Shown one piece after another: positions 8,953 to 21,478 of a stretch of DNA of 64,000 nucleotides (position 1 is the first letter of the stretch; the number at the start of each line of letters is the position of its first letter). The translations under genes and the position numbers were made by a program. The DNA is from Caldicellulosiruptor bescii DSM 6725 (GTDB lineage Bacteria; Bacillota; Thermoanaerobacteria; Caldicellulosiruptorales; Caldicellulosiruptoraceae): NCBI RefSeq assembly GCF_000022325.1, contig NC_012034.1:638501-702500 (forward strand), in the 5' to 3' direction. The notes beneath the pieces are model-generated. The model searched no databases and had not been told where the DNA came from. It saw only the letters and a program-made list of their open reading frames with translations.

Positions 8953-9044
<92 letters not shown>

Positions 9045-9073: not shown

Positions 9074-11026
9074 ATGGAACTTTCAAAATTACAGACACCG
9101 AGAAATCCTTTGAAAGCAGGCGCTCAACCTGCTGCATCAAACCAAATTCAAGATGTTTCTCAGAGCCAATCTTACAGTACCAGTATTTTTGACTCAACTA
9201 AGAGAAAAGAAAGAAGAGATGAGCTGAAGAAAAACACAATAATCGAGAGGCTGGCTGCAGCATCAGCTGAAACTCAGGCGGCTGTAGCCCAGGCAACACG
9301 TAATGTAAATGAGCTTCAGGTTGCAGTGCAAGAGATTGCAGCATCGGCTCAGGAAGCATCAAAAGCTGCTAATGAATCTTTAAAAGCTATTCAGGAGATT
9401 GAAAAGGTTGCAAAGGTTTCAGATGAAAAAGCAGTTGAACTTTCAAACTCTATTGCAAACCTTCAGACGCTTATTCAGAGTATTTCAGATGAGATAGAAG
9501 AAGTCATAAGAGGAATTGAAATATCTGCTCAAAGTTCTGTTGAGTCTGCAGAGAATGTTTTGCAACTTGAAAGACAGGCAAATGAAATTAAAAATACTGC
9601 CCAAGCTGTAATGGAGGTTGCTGACCAGACAAATTTGCTTGCACTCAATGCTGCGATTGAGGCTGCAAGGGCAGGAAAACATGGTCGTGGGTTTGCAGTT
9701 GTGGCAGATGAGGTAAGAAGCTTAGCAGAGATAACAAATAAAGCTGCTATAGAGATTCAAAACATCATAGAGGATATTCAAAAAGATGTAAATGTTGTAG
9801 CTCAAGACATAAGAAGCGTCGGAACACTTGTCAGAGGAGAAGCTGAAAAGGCAAAAGGTGTTACAGAGGATTTGAAGAAAATAGAGGATGCTATAAATAC
9901 AATTGTCGAAGCCATGAAGGAAATAAGGGTTTTGTCAAGGAACATGATGAATGCATCAAGCGAGGTCAGGGGCGGAAGCCAGCAGATTGCAGCAGCTGCT
10001 GAGGAAACTGCAGCTGCAACTGAAGAGTCAAATGCATCGTTAATTGAACAGACAAAAGCATTGAACGAGATTAACAATGCAATAACTATGCTTGCTGAAA
10101 TGGCAGATGAGTTAAAATCTACAACTGTAACTCAGAAAAATGCAGAAGAACTTGCTGCAGCGTCTTCTGAGCTTGCTGCTATGGTAGAAGAGTCACACAA
10201 GGCAAGTTATCAGATTTCTTCAGCGCTTGAACAAATAATGCAAGCTTCTGAAGAACAAGCAGCTGCATGTGAAGAATCCCAAAGGGCAACAGAGAATCTT
10301 AAAAACATGCAAAAAGACATAGTTGATAGATTAGAAAATGTTACAAAGTTGTCAAAAGAGCTTCAAGAAATTTTAGAAAAGAACAGGAAAGACGTAGAAG
10401 GATTGATTGAGGGTGTTTCCCAATCGGTTGAAAAGAACAAACAGTCATTGGAAAGTGTGAGAGTACTTGAGAAAAGAATTAGAAACATTGAAAAGATAAT
10501 TGATACAATCTCAAATGTTACAACAAAAGTAGACTTGCTGTCACTCAATGGTTCAATTGAAGCGGCCCGTTCCGGCAAGTATGGAAAGGGATTTGCAGTT
10601 GTTGCAGGAGATATAAAGCAGCTTGCTCAGCAGTCAAGTGAAGCTATTGGAAATATCAAAGAAATGGTGAGAAATATTGGCGACCAAGTAAGAATTGTGT
10701 ATGAGGATGTAGAAAATGCAGTAAAGACATCTACACAGGAAAACGAAAAAGCACAAAAAATTACCATTTCGCTTGAGAGAGTGAGGATTGCAACTGAAAA
10801 AGTTTTAGCTGAAGGCGGGCAGCTACTTAAGATGGCACAGGATGCAGAAGCAGCTTTAACCCAGATTGCAGCAGGAACCATGCAGATAGCAAGAGGAGCA
10901 GAAGAAGCATCACAAGCAGCTCAAAGTGCAGCAACCCAGGCACAAGAACAGCTAAAAGCAATATCTCAGATTGCTCAGGCAGCTCAGGAACTTGCTAATC
11001 TTGCTGAAGAGCTTAAAAATATTTAA
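9074..11026 (+). CDS. soluble methyl-accepting chemotaxis protein with two signalling tips
   Basis: Chemoreceptor-type coiled-coil protein (650 aa) without any transmembrane segment or recognisable ligand domain; the first 55 residues are polar and then helical Ala/Glu/Gln-rich sequence runs to the end. It holds the highly conserved receptor hairpin tip twice: [18 protein letters not shown] near residue 184 and, diverged, [17 protein letters not shown] near 485, each followed by GFAVVA. Stretches such as [14 protein letters not shown] resemble methylation sites. It should sit in the cytoplasm and bind CheW and CheA encoded downstream. The start is ATG after GGGGAGGT. First gene of an operon that runs to 21478. 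Two tips in one chain are unusual and suggest an internal duplication. Confidence 0.88.
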
Positions 11027-11060
11027 GCGGGGTTAGTTTAAAAGAGGAGGATTGAGTAAT

Positions 11061-11612
11061 ATGATTGAAGAAGAAAGAAAAAAATTGTTAAAAGCAGATA
11101 TAGCTGAAGATTTTGAAGAAGAAGATGAACTCACTGATGAAAAGCAGCTTGTCATTTTCAAACTTGGGGATGAAGAGTACGGTGTTGATATAATGCAGGT
11201 CAAAGAGATTATCAGAACAACCAACATTACCAAAATACCACAAGTACCATCTTTTGTTGAAGGGATAATAAGTCTGCGGGGAGAAATACTGCCTATAATT
11301 GATATGCGAAAAAAATTTGGACTTCCAGAGACAGAAAGAACAAGACAAACAAGAATCCTTGTCATAAACCTTGACAATATGACAATAGGCGGAATTGTTG
11401 ATGAAGTTACGGAGGTTTTAAGACTTCCAAATGATGCTATAACACCCCCACCACCTGTTATAAGGGGAATCAACACTGAGTACTTACAAGGTGTTGGTCA
11501 AATTAATGGTAGGATAATAATTCTTCTTGACATGTCAAAGATATTAACATCAAATGAGGTAATTCAAATTGAGGAGTTAAAAGAGGAACTTTTGAACACA
11601 AATACACAATAA
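11061..11612 (+). CDS. cheW: CheW coupling protein
   Basis: Adaptor linking receptors to CheA (183 aa). The CheW fold is at about residues 30-165: LVIFKLGDEEYGVDIMQVKEIIR, then IPQVPSFVEGIISLRGEILPIIDMR and VDEVTEVLRLP. The N-terminal 28 residues are very acidic. Start: ATG 11061 lies ten bases after GAGGAGG; the TTG nine bases earlier is too close to it. It lies 34 bases after the receptor gene in the chemosensory operon, and a second CheW domain occurs fused to an HPt domain at 17132. Confidence 0.93.
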   Translation: MIEEERKKLLKADIAEDFEEEDELTDEKQLVIFKLGDEEYGVDIMQVKEIIRTTNITKIPQVPSFVEGIISLRGEILPIIDMRKKFGLPETERTRQTRILVINLDNMTIGGIVDEVTEVLRLPNDAITPPPPVIRGINTEYLQGVGQINGRIIILLDMSKILTSNEVIQIEELKEELLNTNTQ

Positions 11613-11651
11613 AACTTTTACTAAACCATACGGGAGAGTAGAAATTCAAAG

Positions 11652-12683
11652 ATGGTAAGAGTGTTAGTAGCAGAAGATTCCCCTTTGATGAGAAGGGTTT
11701 TAATAAAAATACTTCAAAAAAGTCCTTTTATAAAGGTTATAGATTATGCAACAAATGGGCAGGAGGCAATCGAAAAGGTTGCCTCCCTTCGCCCAGACGT
11801 TGTCACAATGGATGTTGAAATGCCTGTATTAAACGGTCTTGAGGCTCTGAAAGCAATAATGCAAACATGTCCAACACCTGTTTTGATGATATCAACGCTT
11901 ACCCAAAAAGGTGCTGAAGTCACACTAAAAGCTTTGAGTCTTGGTGCGGTGGATTTTATTCCAAAGCCTTCTGCCTACTCAAGCGAGCTTGAAAGTATAG
12001 AAAATGAAATTATTAAAAAAGTATTAAATGCAGCAAAAGCGAATGTCTTTGGCAAAAAAGTAGGTTCTTTGAACACTACTAAAATTATTTCAGTTTCAAA
12101 AAAACCATTAGTAAAGCCAAATGCTATATTTATTGGTGTTTCAACAGGCGGACCAAAAACTCTTGGTGAGATAATACCCTATATTAAAAGTGATATAGGT
12201 GTACCAATATTTATTGTTCAGCATATGCCACCAAACTTTACACGACAACTTGCTTCAACCCTTTCAGAAAGAAGTTCGCATTTTATAAAGGAAGCTGAAA
12301 AGGGTGAATTTGTAAAACCTAATACAGTCTACATTGCACCAGGTGGCAAGCAAATGGAACTAATAATCTCTGGTGGCAGAACTGTAATAAATATAGTTGA
12401 TGGTCCAAATGATTTGATATACAAGCCTTCTGTTGATTATGTTGGGTTTTCACTTGCCAATCATTATAAAGACAGACTTGTTGCAATAATGCTGACAGGA
12501 ATGGGCAATGATGGCGCAAAAGCATTTGCATTTATCAAAAAACTTGGTGGTTTTATAATAGCTGAGGATCAGTCCACTGCTATTATATTTGGAATGCCAA
12601 AATCTGTAATTGATCAGGGGATTGCTGATTTGATTTTGCCTTGCACAAGTATTGCAGGGGCTATAAATTCTATATTTTCATGA
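11652..12683 (+). CDS. cheB: chemotaxis response regulator protein-glutamate methylesterase
   Basis: Removes methyl groups from receptor glutamates (or deamidates glutamines) when phosphorylated by CheA; 343 aa. Residues 1-120 are a receiver with the acidic residues in VAEDS and phospho-acceptor D54 (VTMDVEMP). The C-terminal methylesterase (about 155-340) shows the catalytic Ser motif FIGVSTGGP, the His in IVQHMPP and the Asp in MLTGMGNDGAKA. It is paired with CheR encoded later in the operon, so adaptation by methylation is expected. Its stop overlaps upstream candidate starts of cheA. Confidence 0.95.
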   Translation: MVRVLVAEDSPLMRRVLIKILQKSPFIKVIDYATNGQEAIEKVASLRPDVVTMDVEMPVLNGLEALKAIMQTCPTPVLMISTLTQKGAEVTLKALSLGAVDFIPKPSAYSSELESIENEIIKKVLNAAKANVFGKKVGSLNTTKIISVSKKPLVKPNAIFIGVSTGGPKTLGEIIPYIKSDIGVPIFIVQHMPPNFTRQLASTLSERSSHFIKEAEKGEFVKPNTVYIAPGGKQMELIISGGRTVINIVDGPNDLIYKPSVDYVGFSLANHYKDRLVAIMLTGMGNDGAKAFAFIKKLGGFIIAEDQSTAIIFGMPKSVIDQGIADLILPCTSIAGAINSIFS

Positions 12684-12712
12684 GAAAGATTTTTAAGGGC
12701 AGGGTTGAGAAG

Positions 12713-14350
12713 ATGAATTATGAAGAAAAGAAGTTTCTCATGGAACTTTTAGATGAGGGGAAAAAGATATACAAAATAGAGTTTTTATTAAAGCCAGAAG
12801 CTGAGTTTAAATCTCCATCTATGGCAAAGATATATAAAGCTCTTAAAGAAAAATACAATATTTTTTTAACAATTCCGGATGTAGAGCAGGAACATGTTAG
12901 TGAAGAAGTAAATGAATATCTATTTTTTATTGAAGGCGACATTGAAATAAATGCATTACGGCAGGATGTAGAGGATATCTGTAAAACTGAGGATGTAGTG
13001 GAAATTTTCTTTATACAAAAACTAATAAAAGAGGATTTAGAGGTAACAGAAACAGAAGAAGTGGACAAAATTGTAAACCAGTCTGAGAGTGATCAGACGG
13101 GGACTTTTGAGGATGGAATTAAGAATCTTAAAGAAATTGATATTAAAAGAATTGATTCAGTGCGAATAGATATAAACAAGCTCAATAATCTTACAAATCT
13201 TGCTGGCGAACTTATTACCTGTAAATCTCAATTGAATCAGATATTAAATGCATTCAAAGAAACAAACATAAAAGATAAAACGCTTAGTAACTTAATTTCA
13301 AATCTTGAAAAAGGAATTTTACGACTCGAAAGAATATCATTTGATATTCAGGAAGGAATAACAAGTTTGAGGCTTTTGCCTATAAAAAATGTTCTGAGAA
13401 AGCTTCCGCGAATTGTTCGAGAGGTTGCTCAAAAAGAAGGGAAAGAGGTTGAACTTATCATAAAAGGTGAAGAAACAGAAATAGACAAGATTATACTTGA
13501 AAAGATAACCGACCCACTTGTTCACTTGGTGAGAAATTGTGTAAATCATGGAATTGAAAAGCCTGAAGAAAGAATTGCTAAGGGAAAAAGACCTCAGGGA
13601 AGGATTTTGATAGAAGCATATGCAGAAGGTGAGAATATCTACGTAAATGTTGAAGATGATGGCAAAGGTATTGACATTGACAAAGTAAAAGAAAAAGCTC
13701 TGCTAAAAGGTATTGTGACAAAGGATGAGATTGAGAGAATGTCAGATGATGAAATAATAGAGTTTATTTTCTTACCAGGTTTTTCTACTGCTGATAAGAT
13801 TAATGATGTGGCAGGCAGAGGCGTTGGAATGGATGTTGTGAAAAAGAATTTAAGTGAGCTAAAAGGAGAGATAAAGGTTAAAACAGAAAAAGATAAAGGT
13901 ACAAGCTTTTTGATGATAATTCCTCTCACTGTTGCAATAATAAAGACATTGCTGGTTTTAGCTGGGGATAAATTGTATCTGCTTCCGCTTGAAAAAGTGG
14001 TTGAGACAGTAAAGATAAGAAAAGATTCAATAAAGTCTATAACTGGTAAAATGGTATGCAGTATTAAAGGGGAAATAGTACCATTTTTTAGTCTTCAGGA
14101 AATACTTGGATATCAGAAAAGTGAAGATGATAGAAGTTACTATTTTGGAATAATAGTAAAATATAGAGAAAGCAAGGTAGGAATAATCGTGGATAGGCTG
14201 ATGGGCGAATATGATGTGGTTGTAAAGCCTTTAGATCAGTTTGTCGGGAATGTAAAAGGAGTTGTTGGTTCAACAATCTTAGGTGATGGGAAGGTTGTAC
14301 TTTTGCTTGAACCAGAACAGCTAATTGAAAGAGTTATTCAGATGGTCTAA
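12713..14350 (+). CDS. cheA: CheA-type histidine kinase lacking the P1 (HPt) domain
   Basis: Chemosensory kinase, 545 aa from this start. The N-terminus has no HPt helical bundle and no HxxKG motif; residues about 15-105 look like the P2 (CheY/CheB docking) domain (KIYKIEFLLKPEAEFKS). P3 dimerisation helices follow (about 145-220), then the P4 ATPase with N box LVHLVRNCVNHG near residue 268, G1 VEDDGKGID and G2 GRGVGMDVV, and a P5 CheW-like domain (about 405-545). The missing P1 is probably supplied in trans by the HPt-CheW protein at 17132, like the CheA3/CheA4 pair of Rhodobacter sphaeroides. Start: ATG 12713 follows AGGGTTGAG; ATG 12680 overlaps the cheB stop as ATGA and is an alternative adding 11 residues, still with no P1. 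Confidence 0.9.
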   Translation: MNYEEKKFLMELLDEGKKIYKIEFLLKPEAEFKSPSMAKIYKALKEKYNIFLTIPDVEQEHVSEEVNEYLFFIEGDIEINALRQDVEDICKTEDVVEIFFIQKLIKEDLEVTETEEVDKIVNQSESDQTGTFEDGIKNLKEIDIKRIDSVRIDINKLNNLTNLAGELITCKSQLNQILNAFKETNIKDKTLSNLISNLEKGILRLERISFDIQEGITSLRLLPIKNVLRKLPRIVREVAQKEGKEVELIIKGEETEIDKIILEKITDPLVHLVRNCVNHGIEKPEERIAKGKRPQGRILIEAYAEGENIYVNVEDDGKGIDIDKVKEKALLKGIVTKDEIERMSDDEIIEFIFLPGFSTADKINDVAGRGVGMDVVKKNLSELKGEIKVKTEKDKGTSFLMIIPLTVAIIKTLLVLAGDKLYLLPLEKVVETVKIRKDSIKSITGKMVCSIKGEIVPFFSLQEILGYQKSEDDRSYYFGIIVKYRESKVGIIVDRLMGEYDVVVKPLDQFVGNVKGVVGSTILGDGKVVLLLEPEQLIERVIQMV

Positions 14351-14379
14351 TTAAAACTAAAAGGAGTGGGGCACAGAAG

Positions 14380-15858
14380 ATGAATTCAGCTATGGAAATA
14401 ATTGAAATGCTAAATTCAGATGACTATCTATTACAAAAAGAAGCTATTGAAAATGCACCAAAGTTTAAGGAACCTGAAATTGTTGATAGATTAATAGATC
14501 TTTTTATAAAAACAAACAATAAAATGATTGAGGAGCACATTACAGAAGCTTTAAAACAAATAGGTGGCAGTTATACTGTTGAAAAATTATTGAGGCTTTT
14601 AGACCATGAAGAAGCAAGGGTTAGGGTTTTTGCTTTTGAGGTTTTAAGTAAAATAGGTAATGATAATATTCACGCAATAATCAAAGAGGCGGAAAATCCA
14701 GATAAAAATGTTAGGAAATTTGTAGTGGATATTTTAGGTGCTCTTAAAAACAAAGAAGCAGTTGATACTTTATTGAAAAGGTTATCAGATGATGATGTAA
14801 ATGTAGTACAGGGGGCCATTGAGGCACTTGGCAATATTGGGGATGTTGAAGCTCTCAAAAAGGTAATTGAGTTTTTACCTTCTGCTCATCTGTGGGTACA
14901 GTGGACAATAATTGAGAGCATAAAAAAAGTGAACAATAGAGAACTAATTTCAGAGGTTTTAAATCTGCCATGGGAGATTGAGGATATCATCTTTGACAGT
15001 ATTTTTGACATGGTGAAAGAAAATGGTACCCTTGAGAATGTGGAGGATGCAGTAAATCTTTATTTAAAGCTTTCAACACAGCTGAGGATAAAGGTTTTAG
15101 ATACCATATATTCGATTTATATAAAGTCAGATAAACAAAAAGTTGAAAAAGTTTTATCAAATACAAGCTTTTTTGATGAAATAAAAACCATTTTGATATA
15201 TGGTTCTGATACACAAAAATTTGAGATTTTTAACTATATGGGTAGCATAGAAGATAAGGATTTTGTAAGGTTTATAAAGAGTAGGGTGTTTGATGAAACA
15301 GTTATTCTAAGCGCTATAAAACTCTATTACGCATCGAATACTTTAGAGAAAAGAGAATTAGTTAGAGTGTTTAAATATTTTAATAAGTCAAAACTGGTTG
15401 AATATATGAGAGAGATATTCAAAGGTGATGATAATATCTTAAAGCTTAGCGGGTTGAAGATTATGAGATACAATGGTATCAAGGAGGCAGCAGATGTGTT
15501 GCCAGAGATGATAAAAGAAGGAGAGCTTTTACCAGAGGTCTTAAAAACTGTGATAGAACTAAACTTGAAGGAGTTATTTGATAGAATTTATGAAGAATAT
15601 TTCAATGTCAAAAGCGATGACTTAAGACTTTTGATGCTTGAATGTATGGTTGAACTAAGACCTGACGATGCAAAGGTTGTGGCTCTAATTAAAGATGAGC
15701 TTGCAAATGAGTATTTATCTGATGTTCATATTCTCAAGCTTTTACAACTTGTAAGAAAAATTAATGATAAAGAACCATTTAGATTACAGTTAGAATATTT
15801 GGCTGACCATCCTAATATAGAGATTTCTATTGAAGCTCAGGACCTGCTTGGAGGCTAA
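14380..15858 (+). CDS. HEAT-repeat protein in the chemosensory operon
   Basis: 492 aa, no signal peptide, no enzymatic motif. The first 190 residues read as about five HEAT/PBS-lyase-type helical repeats (for example EEARVRVFAFEVLSKIG, KNVRKFVVDILGALK, VNVVQGAIEALGNIG, each about 31 residues apart). The remainder (about 200-492) is helical and probably a more diverged solenoid. Such solenoids bind proteins; the position between cheA and cheR suggests a scaffold or regulator of the chemosensory complex, which is inference. It is flanked by gaps of 29 and 11 bases, so it is clearly part of the operon. HEAT proteins occur in some non-flagellar chemosensory clusters. Confidence 0.8.
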   Translation: MNSAMEIIEMLNSDDYLLQKEAIENAPKFKEPEIVDRLIDLFIKTNNKMIEEHITEALKQIGGSYTVEKLLRLLDHEEARVRVFAFEVLSKIGNDNIHAIIKEAENPDKNVRKFVVDILGALKNKEAVDTLLKRLSDDDVNVVQGAIEALGNIGDVEALKKVIEFLPSAHLWVQWTIIESIKKVNNRELISEVLNLPWEIEDIIFDSIFDMVKENGTLENVEDAVNLYLKLSTQLRIKVLDTIYSIYIKSDKQKVEKVLSNTSFFDEIKTILIYGSDTQKFEIFNYMGSIEDKDFVRFIKSRVFDETVILSAIKLYYASNTLEKRELVRVFKYFNKSKLVEYMREIFKGDDNILKLSGLKIMRYNGIKEAADVLPEMIKEGELLPEVLKTVIELNLKELFDRIYEEYFNVKSDDLRLLMLECMVELRPDDAKVVALIKDELANEYLSDVHILKLLQLVRKINDKEPFRLQLEYLADHPNIEISIEAQDLLGG

Positions 15859-15869
15859 GGAGGAGCAAA

Positions 15870-16712
15870 ATGCTAACAGAAATTGTCTTGAATAATCAAG
15901 AGTGGTATATTATAAGAGATTTTATATACAAAATTACAGGATTGTACTTTTCCGATGATAAAAAAAGCTATATTCAAAAAAGATTGAAAATAGCAATGGA
16001 TAATTTAGCGATAACAGATTTTTGGGAGTATTTAAAAAGAATTGAGACTGACAGAAATGCTCTTAACAAATTATTGGAATTGATTACAACAAATGAAACA
16101 TATTTTTTCAGAGACATTCCGCAACTTGACATGTTTTCGAAAGATGTTTTGCCTGAACTTTTGAATAGAAAAGCAAGCAAAGGTGATTTTAGGTTAAAAA
16201 TTTGGAGTGCAGGATGTTCAACAGGTGAAGAACCTTACACTATTGCAATAATTTTGAAAGAAAGGCTTGAATATTTTGATGACTGGGACATTGAGATACT
16301 TGGAACTGATATTTCAGAAAGGGTTTTAAGGCTTGCGCAAGATGCTATTTACTTGCCACGGTCTTTGAAAGATGTTCCAGAGTATATAAAACTTAAATAT
16401 TTTGAGTACAGCCCTGTAGATAAAATGTACAAGCTCAAAGATGAGATAAAGAAGCTGGTAACTTTTAGGTACTTGAATCTTTATGATGAGAGTAAGATGA
16501 GGCTTATGAGAAATTATGATGTGATATTTTGTAGAAATGTTTTGATTTACTTTGACGAAGAGTCAAGAAAAAAGGTTGTAGAATATTTTTATGATGCATT
16601 AAATCCGGGTGGTTATATCTTTTTAGGACATTCAGAGAGTATCCTAAGAATCACAAAAGCTTTTGAAATTGTTTATTTTGACAACAACATAGCTTTCAGA
16701 AAACCCATGTAA
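15870..16712 (+). CDS. cheR: CheR chemoreceptor glutamate methyltransferase
   Basis: S-adenosylmethionine-dependent methylation of receptor glutamates, opposing CheB; 280 aa, standard length. N-terminal helical domain (residues 1-80) ends in the conserved LITTNETYFFRD, the SAM-binding core is KIWSAGCSTGEEPYT near residue 110 with LGTDIS, and the catalytic-domain signature is YDVIFCRNVLIYFD near 215 followed by GGYIFLGHSES. The start is ATG after AGGAGGAG, 11 bases after the HEAT gene stop. Confidence 0.95.
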   Translation: MLTEIVLNNQEWYIIRDFIYKITGLYFSDDKKSYIQKRLKIAMDNLAITDFWEYLKRIETDRNALNKLLELITTNETYFFRDIPQLDMFSKDVLPELLNRKASKGDFRLKIWSAGCSTGEEPYTIAIILKERLEYFDDWDIEILGTDISERVLRLAQDAIYLPRSLKDVPEYIKLKYFEYSPVDKMYKLKDEIKKLVTFRYLNLYDESKMRLMRNYDVIFCRNVLIYFDEESRKKVVEYFYDALNPGGYIFLGHSESILRITKAFEIVYFDNNIAFRKPM

Positions 16713-16743
16713 AAATAAAGAATAATGGGGGGTACGAAAAGAT

Positions 16744-17115
16744 ATGCCGAAAATTTTAGTTGTTGATGATTCGCCGGTTGTAAAGAAAATTGTAACAACA
16801 ACACTTGTGAAAAAAGGGTTTGATGTAAAAGAAGCAATAGACGGTGTTGCTGCATTGGAAATACTTTTAAGCGAGAAGATTGACCTTGTTATTACAGACC
16901 TCAATATGCCAAAGATGGACGGTCTGCAGCTTACCAGAGAAATAAGGAAAAACCCGATGTATAAGAGAATACCAGTTATTATGCTAACAACAAATCCATC
17001 AGAAGAGCAAAAAGCGTTAGAAGCGGGTGCAAATCTGTACCTGAAAAAACCTGTGACAAGCGAGGAATTGATTTCACATGTTCAAAAATTTTTGGGGATA
17101 GAAATGAGAAGTTAA
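16744..17115 (+). CDS. cheY: CheY-like single-domain response regulator
   Basis: 123-aa stand-alone receiver. All phosphorylation residues are present: acidic pair D8-D9 (VVDDS), phospho-acceptor D52 (VITDLNMP), Thr near 82 (MLTT) and the Lys before Pro (YLKKP). It could carry the signal from CheA or act as a phosphate sink. No flagellar motor genes are present in the window, so the target is unknown. The start is ATG after a GGGGGG-containing ribosome site. Confidence 0.9.
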   Translation: MPKILVVDDSPVVKKIVTTTLVKKGFDVKEAIDGVAALEILLSEKIDLVITDLNMPKMDGLQLTREIRKNPMYKRIPVIMLTTNPSEEQKALEAGANLYLKKPVTSEELISHVQKFLGIEMRS

Positions 17116-17131
17116 CAGAGGTGGGATTGTA

Positions 17132-18127
17132 ATGACTGACCAATTGTTCAGTGCAGCAGAACTTGAAGAGCTTAAAAAAGATTTTATTGTTGAAACATAC
17201 GAGCATCTTGAGAATGCTCAAGATGCTCTCCTGCAACTTGAGAAAGATCCAGCTAACTATGAAACACTAAATTTTATATTCCGTGAAATTCATTCAATAA
17301 AAGGAGGCGCAAACTTTTTAGGTCTGCAGGATATAATCAACGTTTCTCATGAAATGGAGAGCTTATTGGACAAGATGAGAAACTATGAGATATATCCTTC
17401 CAGTGATGTTATAAATGCTATTTTTGAAGGAATAGATATAATTCGAAAGTTGGCAGATAATTTGGAGAATAATGAACAAAGCTGTATTGATTATACCTCA
17501 TACATAGCACAATTGAAGAGAATAGACAGTTCAAAGCATTCATCAGATACAGCTATTCAAGGAAGAATAAAAAATAATGATGATTTTCAAACATCAAACG
17601 AACCTGAATTTGCAAGAAATCAAGAAGATGACAAAAATGGTGGATTTACAAACTTCAGAATAAATGATGATGACCAACGTATTGATGAAGATTCTTACCA
17701 AATGATTGTTTCATTTGAATATGGAGATGTTACTTATGGAATTGAAGTAGAGTTTGTCAGGGAGATAGTGAGGCCAACAGATGTAACCACAATACCGTTT
17801 GCACCTGAACATGTAATGGGGCTTATGAATCTGAGAGGAGATGTTGTAACAATAGTTGATTTTGGGAAACTACTGGGGGTTGAAAAGAGTGAAAGTAATA
17901 ATCACAAAGTTCTAATAATTGGCAATGATGAATTGACATTTGGGCTGTACGTTGATAATGTAAGAGAAGTTGTGAGTGTGCTTCCTGAGGAGATAAAAAA
18001 AGAATTAAATGTTTCTTCAATTTCATCAGGAGAGATTTTGAAAGGAATAGTAGAAAGAAATGGTGAGTTTATACAAATAATAGATATTAGGAAATTAATA
18101 GAAAGGTCAAAAATAGTATGGAGTTGA
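17132..18127 (+). CDS. HPt-CheW fusion protein (stand-alone CheA P1-P5 equivalent)
   Basis: 331 aa. Residues about 14-120 form a histidine phosphotransfer domain with the phospho-His motif IHSIKGGANFLGL (H54). A polar linker (about 130-185) leads to a CheW-like domain at about 188-325 (IVSFEYGDVTYGIEVEFVREIVR, IPFAPEHVMGLMNLRGDVVTIVDF). There is no dimerisation or ATPase domain. Because the operon's CheA has P2-P5 but no P1, this protein probably provides the phosphorylatable His while its CheW domain docks it on the receptor array, as in R. sphaeroides CheA3. That partnership is inference from domain complementarity and shared operon. Its ATG lies 17 bases after the cheY stop. Confidence 0.88.
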   Translation: MTDQLFSAAELEELKKDFIVETYEHLENAQDALLQLEKDPANYETLNFIFREIHSIKGGANFLGLQDIINVSHEMESLLDKMRNYEIYPSSDVINAIFEGIDIIRKLADNLENNEQSCIDYTSYIAQLKRIDSSKHSSDTAIQGRIKNNDDFQTSNEPEFARNQEDDKNGGFTNFRINDDDQRIDEDSYQMIVSFEYGDVTYGIEVEFVREIVRPTDVTTIPFAPEHVMGLMNLRGDVVTIVDFGKLLGVEKSESNNHKVLIIGNDELTFGLYVDNVREVVSVLPEEIKKELNVSSISSGEILKGIVERNGEFIQIIDIRKLIERSKIVWS

Positions 18128-18132
18128 TTTAA

Positions 18133-19122
18133 ATGGAATTGTATATATATCTTCTCTTTGCAATAATGCTGATGATAATAATTGCTGAAAAATTGTTACT
18201 TATGAAAAAGTCCAATGAAATAAAAAAAATTATTGAATTTGTGAGTTCAGGGAAAGTAAAAAAGGGAATACCTAAGGAATTTGTTAATGTATATAAAAGT
18301 AAGCTTGACTTGATAGAAAAACAGTTTAAAAATGAGATATCTAAGCTTAAATCTGAAAACCAGTACCTACAAAAAGAAATAGAGGAAAGTAGAAGAATGT
18401 TAGATAGTCACAACAGTGAGTTTAAAGAACAGTTGCATACTGTATTTGACTCAGTTAAGGAGCTTGCGGAAGCATTTAAGGTAGTAGTGGATGAGATAAA
18501 TGAGGTCCTGGTAAAGAATTTAGAGGACATGACTCAACGATCAAATAAAGTTGAAGATGATATAAGAAATGGTCGAGTTCAGGTTTCAAAGTCTGTAGAG
18601 GATATAAATATCCTTTTGGGTCAAATGCAAGAGTTATTAGAAAATGTTGTTAATCTTTCGGTGCATATTGAAAATATGAGCAAAGTAACGCAGATTATTA
18701 GCGATATTGTAAAGGAGATTTCTTTCATTTCATTAAATGCGCAGATTGAAGCTAATAAAGTGAAAGATTCTATGGCATTTAGTTTGTTGGCATCCGAGAT
18801 GAGAAAGCTTGCAGACAGTGGCAAACAGAGTTTGAAAGAAGTTAACAAGACCATTTCAAATATTGTTGAGGATATTAATACAAACAGTATCCGTATTAAT
18901 ACTTTTGTAAATAAATTGGAAGAGCTGAAAAATAGAACTAATGAAATAACCGATGAATTTGAATCTGTTCACAGACTAATTAGCTCTGTGCTACATTATC
19001 AAAATCAGTTATCAGACCAGGTAAAACAACACTTTGCAGGTATTCAAGAAATTGTTGGGGTGTTAGAGAATATCTACAATGAAGGTGTTCAGATTCTGGA
19101 AAAAAACATTGCACACATATAG
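18133..19122 (+). CDS. membrane-anchored MCP-like protein with a degenerate signalling tip
   Basis: 329 aa. One N-terminal hydrophobic segment (residues 2-24) then a continuous coiled coil. Near residues 195-225 the pattern ISFISLNAQIEANKV then MAFSLLASEMRKLA aligns with the receptor hairpin tip, but the otherwise invariant Ala-Ala-Arg-Ala-Gly after IEA and the GFAVVA segment are replaced. There is no extracellular ligand domain. It may modulate array assembly or be a receptor with altered kinase contacts; function is unknown. It starts five bases after the HPt-CheW stop, so it belongs to the operon. Confidence 0.75.
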   Translation: MELYIYLLFAIMLMIIIAEKLLLMKKSNEIKKIIEFVSSGKVKKGIPKEFVNVYKSKLDLIEKQFKNEISKLKSENQYLQKEIEESRRMLDSHNSEFKEQLHTVFDSVKELAEAFKVVVDEINEVLVKNLEDMTQRSNKVEDDIRNGRVQVSKSVEDINILLGQMQELLENVVNLSVHIENMSKVTQIISDIVKEISFISLNAQIEANKVKDSMAFSLLASEMRKLADSGKQSLKEVNKTISNIVEDINTNSIRINTFVNKLEELKNRTNEITDEFESVHRLISSVLHYQNQLSDQVKQHFAGIQEIVGVLENIYNEGVQILEKNIAHI

Positions 19123-19156
19123 ATGAAATAAAACTTGTGATGAGAGAGGTTAAGTA

Positions 19157-19600
19157 ATGAAAAAGGTGACCTTTCTTATTGTTGATGATTCTCCTATGTG
19201 GAGAAAGGTGATAAGAAGGTTTATAGAAGAAAAACTGGGTGGCAAAGTAATAGCAGAGGCAGAAGATGGAATAGAAGCTGTAAAGCTTTACAAAAGATTT
19301 AAGCCTGATGTGGTTACAATGGACATTGAGATGCCAAAACTTGATGGTATAAGTGCAATGGAAGAGATTTTGAAATTTAATAAAAGTGCAACAGTAATCA
19401 TCATAAGTTCAAAAGGTGAGGAGGATGTAGTAAGAAAAGCTCTTTTAAAAGGGGCAAGAGATTTTATTGTGAAAAATTTAGAGATTGAAAAGTGGACCAA
19501 AAGATTTGAAAAGGTTATAAAAGAAGTTGAGACAAAAAATTCGAAGATAAGTATATTTGTCAATATAAAAAACTACATCAACAGATTTAAAAGACAGTAA
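19157..19600 (+). CDS. CheY-like response regulator
   Basis: Second single receiver (147 aa). It has VDDS acidic residues (D10-D11), phospho-acceptor D56 (VTMDIEMP), Ser in the switch position (IIISSKGEE) and a Lys in DFIVKNLE, which lacks the usual following Pro. A basic tail of about 30 residues (ending NRFKRQ) replaces any output domain. It could compete with CheB and CheY for CheA phosphate. It is 34 bases after the receptor-like gene and directly abuts the GGDEF-EAL gene. Confidence 0.88.
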   Translation: MKKVTFLIVDDSPMWRKVIRRFIEEKLGGKVIAEAEDGIEAVKLYKRFKPDVVTMDIEMPKLDGISAMEEILKFNKSATVIIISSKGEEDVVRKALLKGARDFIVKNLEIEKWTKRFEKVIKEVETKNSKISIFVNIKNYINRFKRQ

Positions 19601-19624
19601 GTGCTCTGCAGCGGGGGTATTTGT

Positions 19625-21478
19625 ATGGGCTTTGAAAAGAAGAGGGATAAAGAGTTGATAGAAAACAATAAGGTTAAATTTTTTGTTGAGAATCTTAAAG
19701 GTTATTTCGGTAATATGAATGAATATGTTGTAGTGGTATGGGACGAGGAAGGAATAATCTTAGAATACAAGGAAAATGGCGAGAAATTGTTAGGCTATTC
19801 CCCTAACCAGATAGAAGGCAAAAAGTGGTTGGATGTTTTAATTGATGACAAAGAAAAAGAAGAGATGGAATGGGTTTATAACAAATTAATAAGTGGTGAA
19901 GTGTTTAAATATTATGTCAATCCTATTAGAGACGTGAATGGAGTAAAAAAGACATTCTTATGGTACAACTCTAAGATAGAAAGTGCGCAGAACAATAAAA
20001 GAATTTTTCTTTCAATAGGTTTTAGCTTAGATGCGATAGAGAGACTAAACAGAAAAATCCACAGATATGAAAAAGATCTCTATAAAATGAGTGCAGAAAG
20101 CGAGAATCTCAGGTTCAAAATTTCTAAACAGGATTTGATTTTGAAACAAAAAGATGAGATGATAAAAGATTATAAAACCAAAGTTGAGTTTTTGGCGTTT
20201 TATGATGAGCTTACCAAATTGCCAAACAAGAATTCACTTATGAGATGGTTAAATTTAAGAATTAGTCAAGCAGATAATATGAGTACATATTTGATCTTTT
20301 TGGAAGTGAGGAATTTAGAAAAGTTAAATGTTATGTATGGATATGACTTGGTAGATGAACTGATTATCCACATAAGTAAGAGGATAGAAGAGATATTGGG
20401 AAAAGAAAATAAAATATTTAAGATAGGATCTGATAGGTTTGCAATAATAGGCAAGACAGATAACGTATCTGAGTTTATTGAAAATTTGTTAAAAAAGTTA
20501 TTGGTGACATACAATATTAATGGAAACTTGATAAAGGTGAGTTACAATGTAGGAGCAACTGCAATAGAGGATGTTAATGACTCCACGGCGAACGTTATAA
20601 GGAAATGTGATTTAGCTTTAATCAGAGCAAAAGAGAAGGGTTTGAATAAGTATGAGATATTTAAACCTTCTTTGGAGGTTCAAACATTAAAGGAAGGGAT
20701 AATTGAAAGAGAACTTCGCAATGGATTGGACTTAAATGAGTTTGTAGTATTTTATCAACCAACTATAAACTTAAAGAATAACCAAATCTGTGGGTTTGAG
20801 GCTCTTTTGAGATGGCATTATTTAAAGTCGGTGTTTGTATCGCCATTGGAATTCATTCCGGTTGCTGAGAAGTGTGGTTTGATTGTGGAGTTAGGCAATA
20901 TTGTATTGGAACAGTCCCTAAAAGTAGCTAAGTGGTTAAGCAGATATATTACTGATGAATTTATAATTTCAATCAATATATCACCACAGCAATTTAGTGA
21001 TAGAGAATTTATTCGTTCCACAATTCAAATATTAGAAAATGAAGGATTAGCGAATGTCAAACTTCAATTCGAAATAACAGAAAAATTGGCAATTGAAAAT
21101 ATTGACTATGCAATTGAAGTGATAAATCAGCTAAGAAAATACAACATAACCTTTGCCTTAGATGATTTTGGTGTCGATTATTCTTCACTCAATTATCTGA
21201 GAAGATTGCCAATACAAGCTGTGAAGATTGATAAGTCCTTTGTTCAAGATATAGAAAAGGACGAAACGTATTTTATAGTAGAAACGATAATAAAACTATG
21301 TAAAAAATTGGGGTTAAAGGTTGTGGCAGAAGGGGTGGAAACAGAGGAACACTACAGAGCTGTAAAAGAACTGGGATGTGACTATGTTCAAGGGTATTTT
21401 ATAAGTAGGCCTTTGGGTGTTGAGGAACTTATAAAATTTATTGAAAAATATAAATGTCAAAATGAAAGCAATTTTTAG
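19625..21478 (+). CDS. PAS-GGDEF(degenerate)-EAL protein, probable c-di-GMP phosphodiesterase
   Basis: 617 aa, no membrane segment. A PAS domain (about residues 28-140) and coiled coil (about 145-185) precede a GGDEF-type domain whose active-site motif is GSDRF, so cyclase activity is unlikely. The EAL domain (about 360-610) keeps its catalytic signature: FEALLRW, NISPQQF, FEITEKL, LDDFG, KIDKSFV, AEGVETEE and QGYFISRP. Expected role: hydrolysis of c-di-GMP to pGpG, perhaps tuned by nucleotide binding to the inactive GGDEF domain. Start: ATG 19625 is seven bases after GCGGGGG; the frame is open from GTG 19601. Last gene of the chemosensory operon, so it is a candidate output module. Confidence 0.87.
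   Translation: MGFEKKRDKELIENNKVKFFVENLKGYFGNMNEYVVVVWDEEGIILEYKENGEKLLGYSPNQIEGKKWLDVLIDDKEKEEMEWVYNKLISGEVFKYYVNPIRDVNGVKKTFLWYNSKIESAQNNKRIFLSIGFSLDAIERLNRKIHRYEKDLYKMSAESENLRFKISKQDLILKQKDEMIKDYKTKVEFLAFYDELTKLPNKNSLMRWLNLRISQADNMSTYLIFLEVRNLEKLNVMYGYDLVDELIIHISKRIEEILGKENKIFKIGSDRFAIIGKTDNVSEFIENLLKKLLVTYNINGNLIKVSYNVGATAIEDVNDSTANVIRKCDLALIRAKEKGLNKYEIFKPSLEVQTLKEGIIERELRNGLDLNEFVVFYQPTINLKNNQICGFEALLRWHYLKSVFVSPLEFIPVAEKCGLIVELGNIVLEQSLKVAKWLSRYITDEFIISINISPQQFSDREFIRSTIQILENEGLANVKLQFEITEKLAIENIDYAIEVINQLRKYNITFALDDFGVDYSSLNYLRRLPIQAVKIDKSFVQDIEKDETYFIVETIIKLCKKLGLKVVAEGVETEEHYRAVKELGCDYVQGYFISRPLGVEELIKFIEKYKCQNESNF

Follow-up and report, generated by a model that had tools for sequence, protein, structure and literature searches.

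A P1-less CheA and an HPt-CheW protein as probable halves of one split CheA in a Caldicellulosiruptor che operon

A chemotaxis kinase that has no phosphorylatable domain of its own raises the question of which protein receives its phosphate. Such a kinase is encoded in the window analysed here, a stretch of 64,000 nucleotides from the thermophilic cellulose degrader Caldicellulosiruptor bescii DSM 6725 (Anaerocellum thermophilum; NC_012034.1, positions 638,501 to 702,500). Its gene belongs to an operon (9074-21478) with intergenic gaps of 0-39 nt, whose genes follow each other in the order of Table 1; the fourth gene after cheA codes for HPt-CheW, which offers a conserved HPt histidine and an adaptor domain. 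By gene content (MCP-CheW-CheB-HEAT-CheR-CheY) and by the kinship of its CheR, which lies inside the HEAT-type clade (97/90), the cluster is of the HEAT type, which other members of the class and phylum also possess, with a double MCP, triple CheW, CheB, HEAT, CheR and CheY. Scans for regulatory signals gave promoter-like sites at chance level and 10 terminator-like sites against 5.1 expected, nothing clear among them.

Table 1. Features of the che operon and its upstream region (positions within the window)
Feature	Position	Strand	Remark
Poly(A) tract, 58 nt	8958..9015	+	58 nt 5' of the operon's first gene
Soluble chemoreceptor (MCP), 650 aa, two MCP signalling stretches	9074..11026	+	both repeats also in sister MCPs
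CheW	11052..11612	+	domain content
CheB	11652..12683	+	domain content
P1-less CheA, kinase half: P2 (aa about 15-105), linker, P3, P4, P5	12713..14350	+	
HEAT-repeat protein, kept in che clusters of the same type	14380..15858	+	
CheR	15870..16712	+	domain content, CheR tree
CheY-like single receiver, candidate acceptor of HPt phosphate	16744..17115	+	
HPt-CheW, phosphodonor half: HPt 1-133, disordered linker 136-186, CheW 190-325	17132..18127	+	
Short MCP-signal-like coiled-coil protein	18133..19122	+	N-terminal hydrophobic segment, seen in the sequence
Second single receiver protein	19157..19600	+	
PAS-GGDEF-EAL protein, possible c-di-GMP output	19601..21478	+	

The preliminary description had read the CheA as starting with a P2-like domain, followed by P3, P4 and P5, and as lacking an HPt bundle and the HxxKG motif; Pfam, alignment, hhalign and AlphaFold2 agree with this reading. 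Within the 545 residues, Pfam matched H-kinase_dim, HATPase_c and CheW and gave no match to Hpt at E≤1; the HxxKG motif is absent, and a single histidine lies ahead of P3. The N-terminal 115 residues align with the P2 domain of full CheAs, just past the P1-P2 linker (hhalign 94.9%), and were modelled by AlphaFold2 as beta-alpha-beta-beta-alpha-beta, which is the P2 fold. As the cheB stop is located 29 nt upstream of the cheA start, a wrongly chosen start codon cannot hide a P1. The P3-P5 part matches T. maritima CheA at 3e-91, the P3 region containing extra residues in the alignment with flagellar CheA, and P4 could be modelled onto P4 structures with bound ATP. Each of the five aligned orthologue sequences has the N, G1, F and G2 boxes, and the ATP-binding motifs are kept save for one exchange: the N-box (13532-13555) reads RNCVNHG, with an asparagine instead of the aspartate found in 40 of the 47 compared CheAs. 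This asparagine is fixed in the five orthologues and occurs in no other CheA of the compared set. Values of dN/dS are about 0.04-0.15 in the domains of this protein, and 0.05-0.11 for P3-P4 across the genus.

The complementary protein was likewise correctly recognised beforehand as an HPt (H54) and CheW protein devoid of a kinase core. Pfam assigned to its 331 residues an Hpt domain (1.7e-12) and a CheW domain (1.1e-29) and found no kinase core; no P2 was found by the domain search. In the AlphaFold2 model, helices between residues 8 and 133 form the HPt bundle, residues 190-325 adopt the CheW fold, and the linker of about 50 residues has pLDDT values below 50. A superposition of the predicted model with P1 of T. 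maritima (1tqg) gave a TM-score of 0.92 and an rmsd of 0.9. H54 sits in HSIKGGANFLGL and is invariant in all seven genomes that possess HPt-CheW. The protein is distinct from CheV, which combines CheW with a receiver domain, in that it carries an HPt in the receiver's place. The operon combines a P3-P4-P5 core that is free of a phosphorylatable HPt with a separate HPt protein bearing a conserved histidine.

A full CheA elsewhere in the genome with HPt-CheW as its partner had been named beforehand as a finding that would speak against this pairing; three full CheAs do exist, the flagellar CheA and proteins of 633 and 608 aa. A census of HPt domains across the genomes of the genus yielded those of the full CheAs plus HPt-CheW; no other HPt occurs apart from a full CheA. 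As the P1-less kinase itself lacks an HPt, HPt-CheW is the sole candidate for a dedicated substrate; on the other hand, the three full CheAs make an alternative partner or cross-talk possible for HPt-CheW, and the pairing may not be exclusive.

HPt-CheW was found in 7 of the 12 genomes of the genus, and six of these seven also possess the P1-less CheA; for six same-genus genomes, both halves lie in a syntenic cluster with identities of 67-100%. For the HPt domain, dN/dS is about 0.05-0.11 with the exception of one very close pair, and it is about 0.05-0.15 across the domains of both proteins, barring a few higher CheW values. These ratios indicate purifying selection on both proteins, and the presence of the two genes in six same-genus genomes together with low dN/dS argues against chance or a sequencing error. 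The seventh genome, G003, encodes HPt-CheW only: an IS110-type transposase gene (L065 11213-12541) occupies the span from mid-MCP to mid-CheY, the kinase gene lies in the replaced part (cheW-cheR), and HPt-CheW is intact. This loss of the kinase may be a recent deletion. G003 can be regarded as a natural knockout that has HPt-CheW without the operon kinase. Relaxed selection on HPt-CheW in this genome was considered, but the dN/dS value of 0.47 in the comparison with G009 rests on few changes, which by eye are mostly on the G009 side, and is uninformative on this point. Between genomes, the stretch 17126-19600, which comprises HPt-CheW, the MCP-like protein at 18133 and the receiver at 19157, is 57-90% identical if the very close G004 is left out; the che genes upstream of it are mostly 73-96% identical. 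This suggests that the three genes may constitute a faster-evolving output module.

Division of CheA into two proteins is not confined to this genus. Ten sister clusters of other Bacillota genomes (L122, L124-L127, L158-L162) encode a CheA of 477-821 aa without a detectable HPt, directly followed by an HPt protein of 287-387 aa. The latter has HPt-P2 architecture according to Pfam in all nine partners scanned; that of L126, which was outside the Pfam scan, aligns with the others. Given these ten cases, a bipartite CheA is, as far as domain content tells, recurrent in HEAT-type che clusters of Bacillota, other members of which (L090, L092, L119, L121) have a full CheA with two HPts. Some of the HPt-P2 partners bear a further C-terminal domain, STAS-like by eye, and in G367 (L162 6019-8334) the HPt-less CheA carries CheY as an N-terminal fusion, resulting in a receiver-CheA core. 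One scan of the genome contigs found no second pair of HPt-CheW and P1-less CheA. A sample of 399 genomes from the phylum yielded one further HPt-CheW, in G151, where it is of separate descent and adjoins a full CheA; the HPt-CheW architecture alone does not imply a P1-less partner. The full CheA of G151 contains a receiver (L085 8371-9270, 10934-13963), and the HPt of the adjoining HPt-CheW is 64% identical to its P1, which suggests a local duplication. A match on an Agrobacterium vitis plasmid was discarded as a parallel case: the annotated CheW protein has about 470 aa, the alignment starts beyond H54, and the CheA of that cluster carries its own HPt.

The phylogenetic placement of the individual domains bears on the origin of the two halves. 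The HPt of HPt-CheW groups with the P1 domains of two-HPt and receiver-bearing CheAs; placing it in the HPt-P2 clade or in the flagellar P1 clade was rejected (AU p = 0.008 in either case). A common origin with the HPt-P2 partners of the sister clusters was discarded on this basis; moreover, HPt-CheW contains no P2. Its CheW domain belongs to the stand-alone CheWs (100/99; the alternative with P5 had AU p = 0.075 and is not fully rejected), and because it groups with these and not with P5, the simplest reading is that the protein arose by fusion of an HPt onto a CheW. The synteny of L090 and L092, where a full CheA comes after CheY, had suggested that HPt-CheW might be the remnant of a full CheA after loss of P2-P4, an idea with which the position of the CheW domain does not agree. 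The kinase core of the P1-less CheA forms its own lineage (100/100). Alternatives in which it shares its origin with the HPt-P2-type kinases gave AU p = 0.067 and 0.28, and a tree holding all HEAT-type CheAs together with this core was even slightly better. Since its HPt is of another clade and the partner is of CheW type, the Caldicellulosiruptor pair is a differently built split CheA, with P2 on the kinase and the HPt on the adaptor, and it was apparently assembled independently.

Taken as a whole, the data make it probable that the P1-less CheA and HPt-CheW are the halves of one split CheA, and the complementary kinase in a Firmicute that the preliminary description had proposed is the best-supported reading, although one or another full CheA may be an alternative partner of HPt-CheW. 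This assignment relies on the complementarity of the halves, on their location in one tight operon and their co-occurrence in six of seven clusters, on the intact motifs, the invariant H54 and the low dN/dS in both, and on the precedent given by the ten sister clusters and by known split CheAs. The P1-less CheA would dimerise via P3 and join the receptor array via P5, and its P4 would bind ATP and phosphorylate H54 of HPt-CheW in trans. The CheW domain of HPt-CheW would bring this protein to the array, and a flexible linker of about 50 residues would tether the HPt to that domain; this docking mode, also proposed beforehand, gained strength from the grouping of the domain with true CheWs. From H54 the phosphate would pass to the CheY at 16744, to the CheB at 11652, and perhaps to the receiver at 19157, whereby the P2 domain kept on the kinase half would dock the receivers; a link to the GGDEF-EAL protein as output is conceivable. 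The amount of HPt might then regulate the phosphate flux, as was further suggested beforehand. Against this assignment speak the three full CheAs, the intact HPt-CheW that G003 keeps after its possibly recent loss of the kinase, the HPt-CheW next to a full CheA in G151, and the asparagine in the N-box of the kinase half in place of the aspartate of nearly all other CheAs compared.

The first three of these would fit an HPt-CheW that is a cross-talk adaptor or phosphate sink: phosphorylated by a full CheA (flagellar, 633-aa or 608-aa), it would couple arrays or drain phosphate somewhat like CheV does. We regard this as unlikely, as HPt-CheW is encoded in the operon of the only HPt-less CheA, which would then be left with no substrate of its own. 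Moreover, G001 has only one other HPt, located in the flagellar CheA, which is also the only other CheA detected there; since the HPt of HPt-CheW is outside the flagellar clade, cross-use in G001 would be across families. In enterics, a short CheA without the P1 histidine is known, and the P1-less CheA, whose P3 is present and intact, might similarly pair up with a full CheA in mixed dimers, or phosphorylate the P1 of other CheAs, HPt-CheW being a side player. This is considerably less probable still: the P1-less CheA is a separate lineage rather than a second product of a full cheA gene, its P3 region deviates from that of flagellar CheA by the extra residues, and a complementary HPt is at hand in the same operon. 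Loss of P1 and the N-box exchange could finally indicate a decaying or inactive kinase half that is only a structural component of the array, which is hard to reconcile with the integrity of all other ATP-site motifs, with the dN/dS of P3-P4 across the genus and with the modelling of P4 onto ATP-bound structures; we give this interpretation hardly any credence.

Split CheAs are already known in kind, although they are rare, and the Caldicellulosiruptor case was noted in print in 2010; the preliminary description mentioned neither this record nor the frequency of split CheAs in the sister cluster type. Hamer et al. 2010 list a P1-less CheA for C. saccharolyticus, and proteins consisting of P1 and P5 only for this species and for A. 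thermophilum (PMC2829493); these are almost certainly the same proteins or orthologues. The paragraph on rare architectures in which they appear contains no analysis of operon, P2, origin or mechanism. Berry et al. 2023 described bipartite CheAs whose Hpt is encoded by a gene of its own within the operon of the kinase (PMC10782961). In these and in the ten HEAT-type clusters, as in our case, the kinase core has no usable HPt, and another gene of the cluster supplies one; however, in the ten clusters an HPt-P2 protein directly follows the kinase, whereas here an HPt-CheW of another HPt clade is encoded four genes away. Biochemically, split CheAs are known from essentially one system, CheA3/CheA4 of Rhodobacter sphaeroides (PMC3591291, PMC10782961), which also combines in one operon a P1-less CheA (dimerisation, kinase, P5) with a partner having an N-terminal HPt and a C-terminal domain of CheW type. 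CheA3, however, is large, with a middle region of 794 aa, CheY6-P phosphatase activity and kinase-domain relics; its size and these relics indicate that it arose from a full CheA. The partner found here consists of HPt, a linker of about 50 aa and a stand-alone-like CheW domain instead of a large middle region and a C-terminal P5, and the P1-less CheA keeps the P2 that CheA4 lacks. Hik36 and Hik43 of Synechocystis (PilL-N/PilL-C) likewise distribute HPt and kinase core over two proteins, but their genes are far apart and belong to a Tfp-type system, and the description of the Hik36 HPt reports no CheW domain (PMC7656254). New findings are the recurrence of split CheA with an HPt-P2 partner in ten sister Bacillota clusters, the different origin of the HPt of HPt-CheW and the stand-alone-like nature of its CheW domain, and the poly(A) tract described below. 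The Caldicellulosiruptor version is minimal and thermophilic, and its phosphodonor is physically separable from the kinase and P2; the pair would thus permit a direct test of how location and stoichiometry of the HPt affect phosphate flux. According to modelling, ultrasensitivity or bistability requires that the HPt half act as a phosphatase as well (PMC3591291).

The poly(A) tract just before the operon is present in all seven related clusters (including L065-L070) with a length of 23-58 nt; at the same position, the other six clusters contain 55, 48, 37, 34, 25 and 23 A. Only four A/T runs of at least 25 nt exist in the whole genome, the tract at 8958-9015 among them. A second precedes the MCP of the second che cluster (that of the 608-aa CheA) by 86 nt, a third precedes a GAF-GGDEF gene by 32 nt, and no signalling gene is obvious downstream of the fourth. 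The fixed position and variable length of the tract suggest a slippage-prone expression switch, that is, a candidate contingency locus. A more far-reaching idea, which we hold to be doubtful, is that the fusion of an unrelated HPt and a CheW turned the phosphodonor into an exchangeable subunit of the array's coupling rings; kinase output would then be set by the proportion of CheW to HPt-CheW, and poly(A) slippage would further vary the operon dose. Between the tract and the ribosome-binding site of the MCP gene lies a palindrome, ACCACAACATTGTGGT (9024-9039), a possible operator or short terminator; it is absent in G010 and imperfectly kept in several orthologues.
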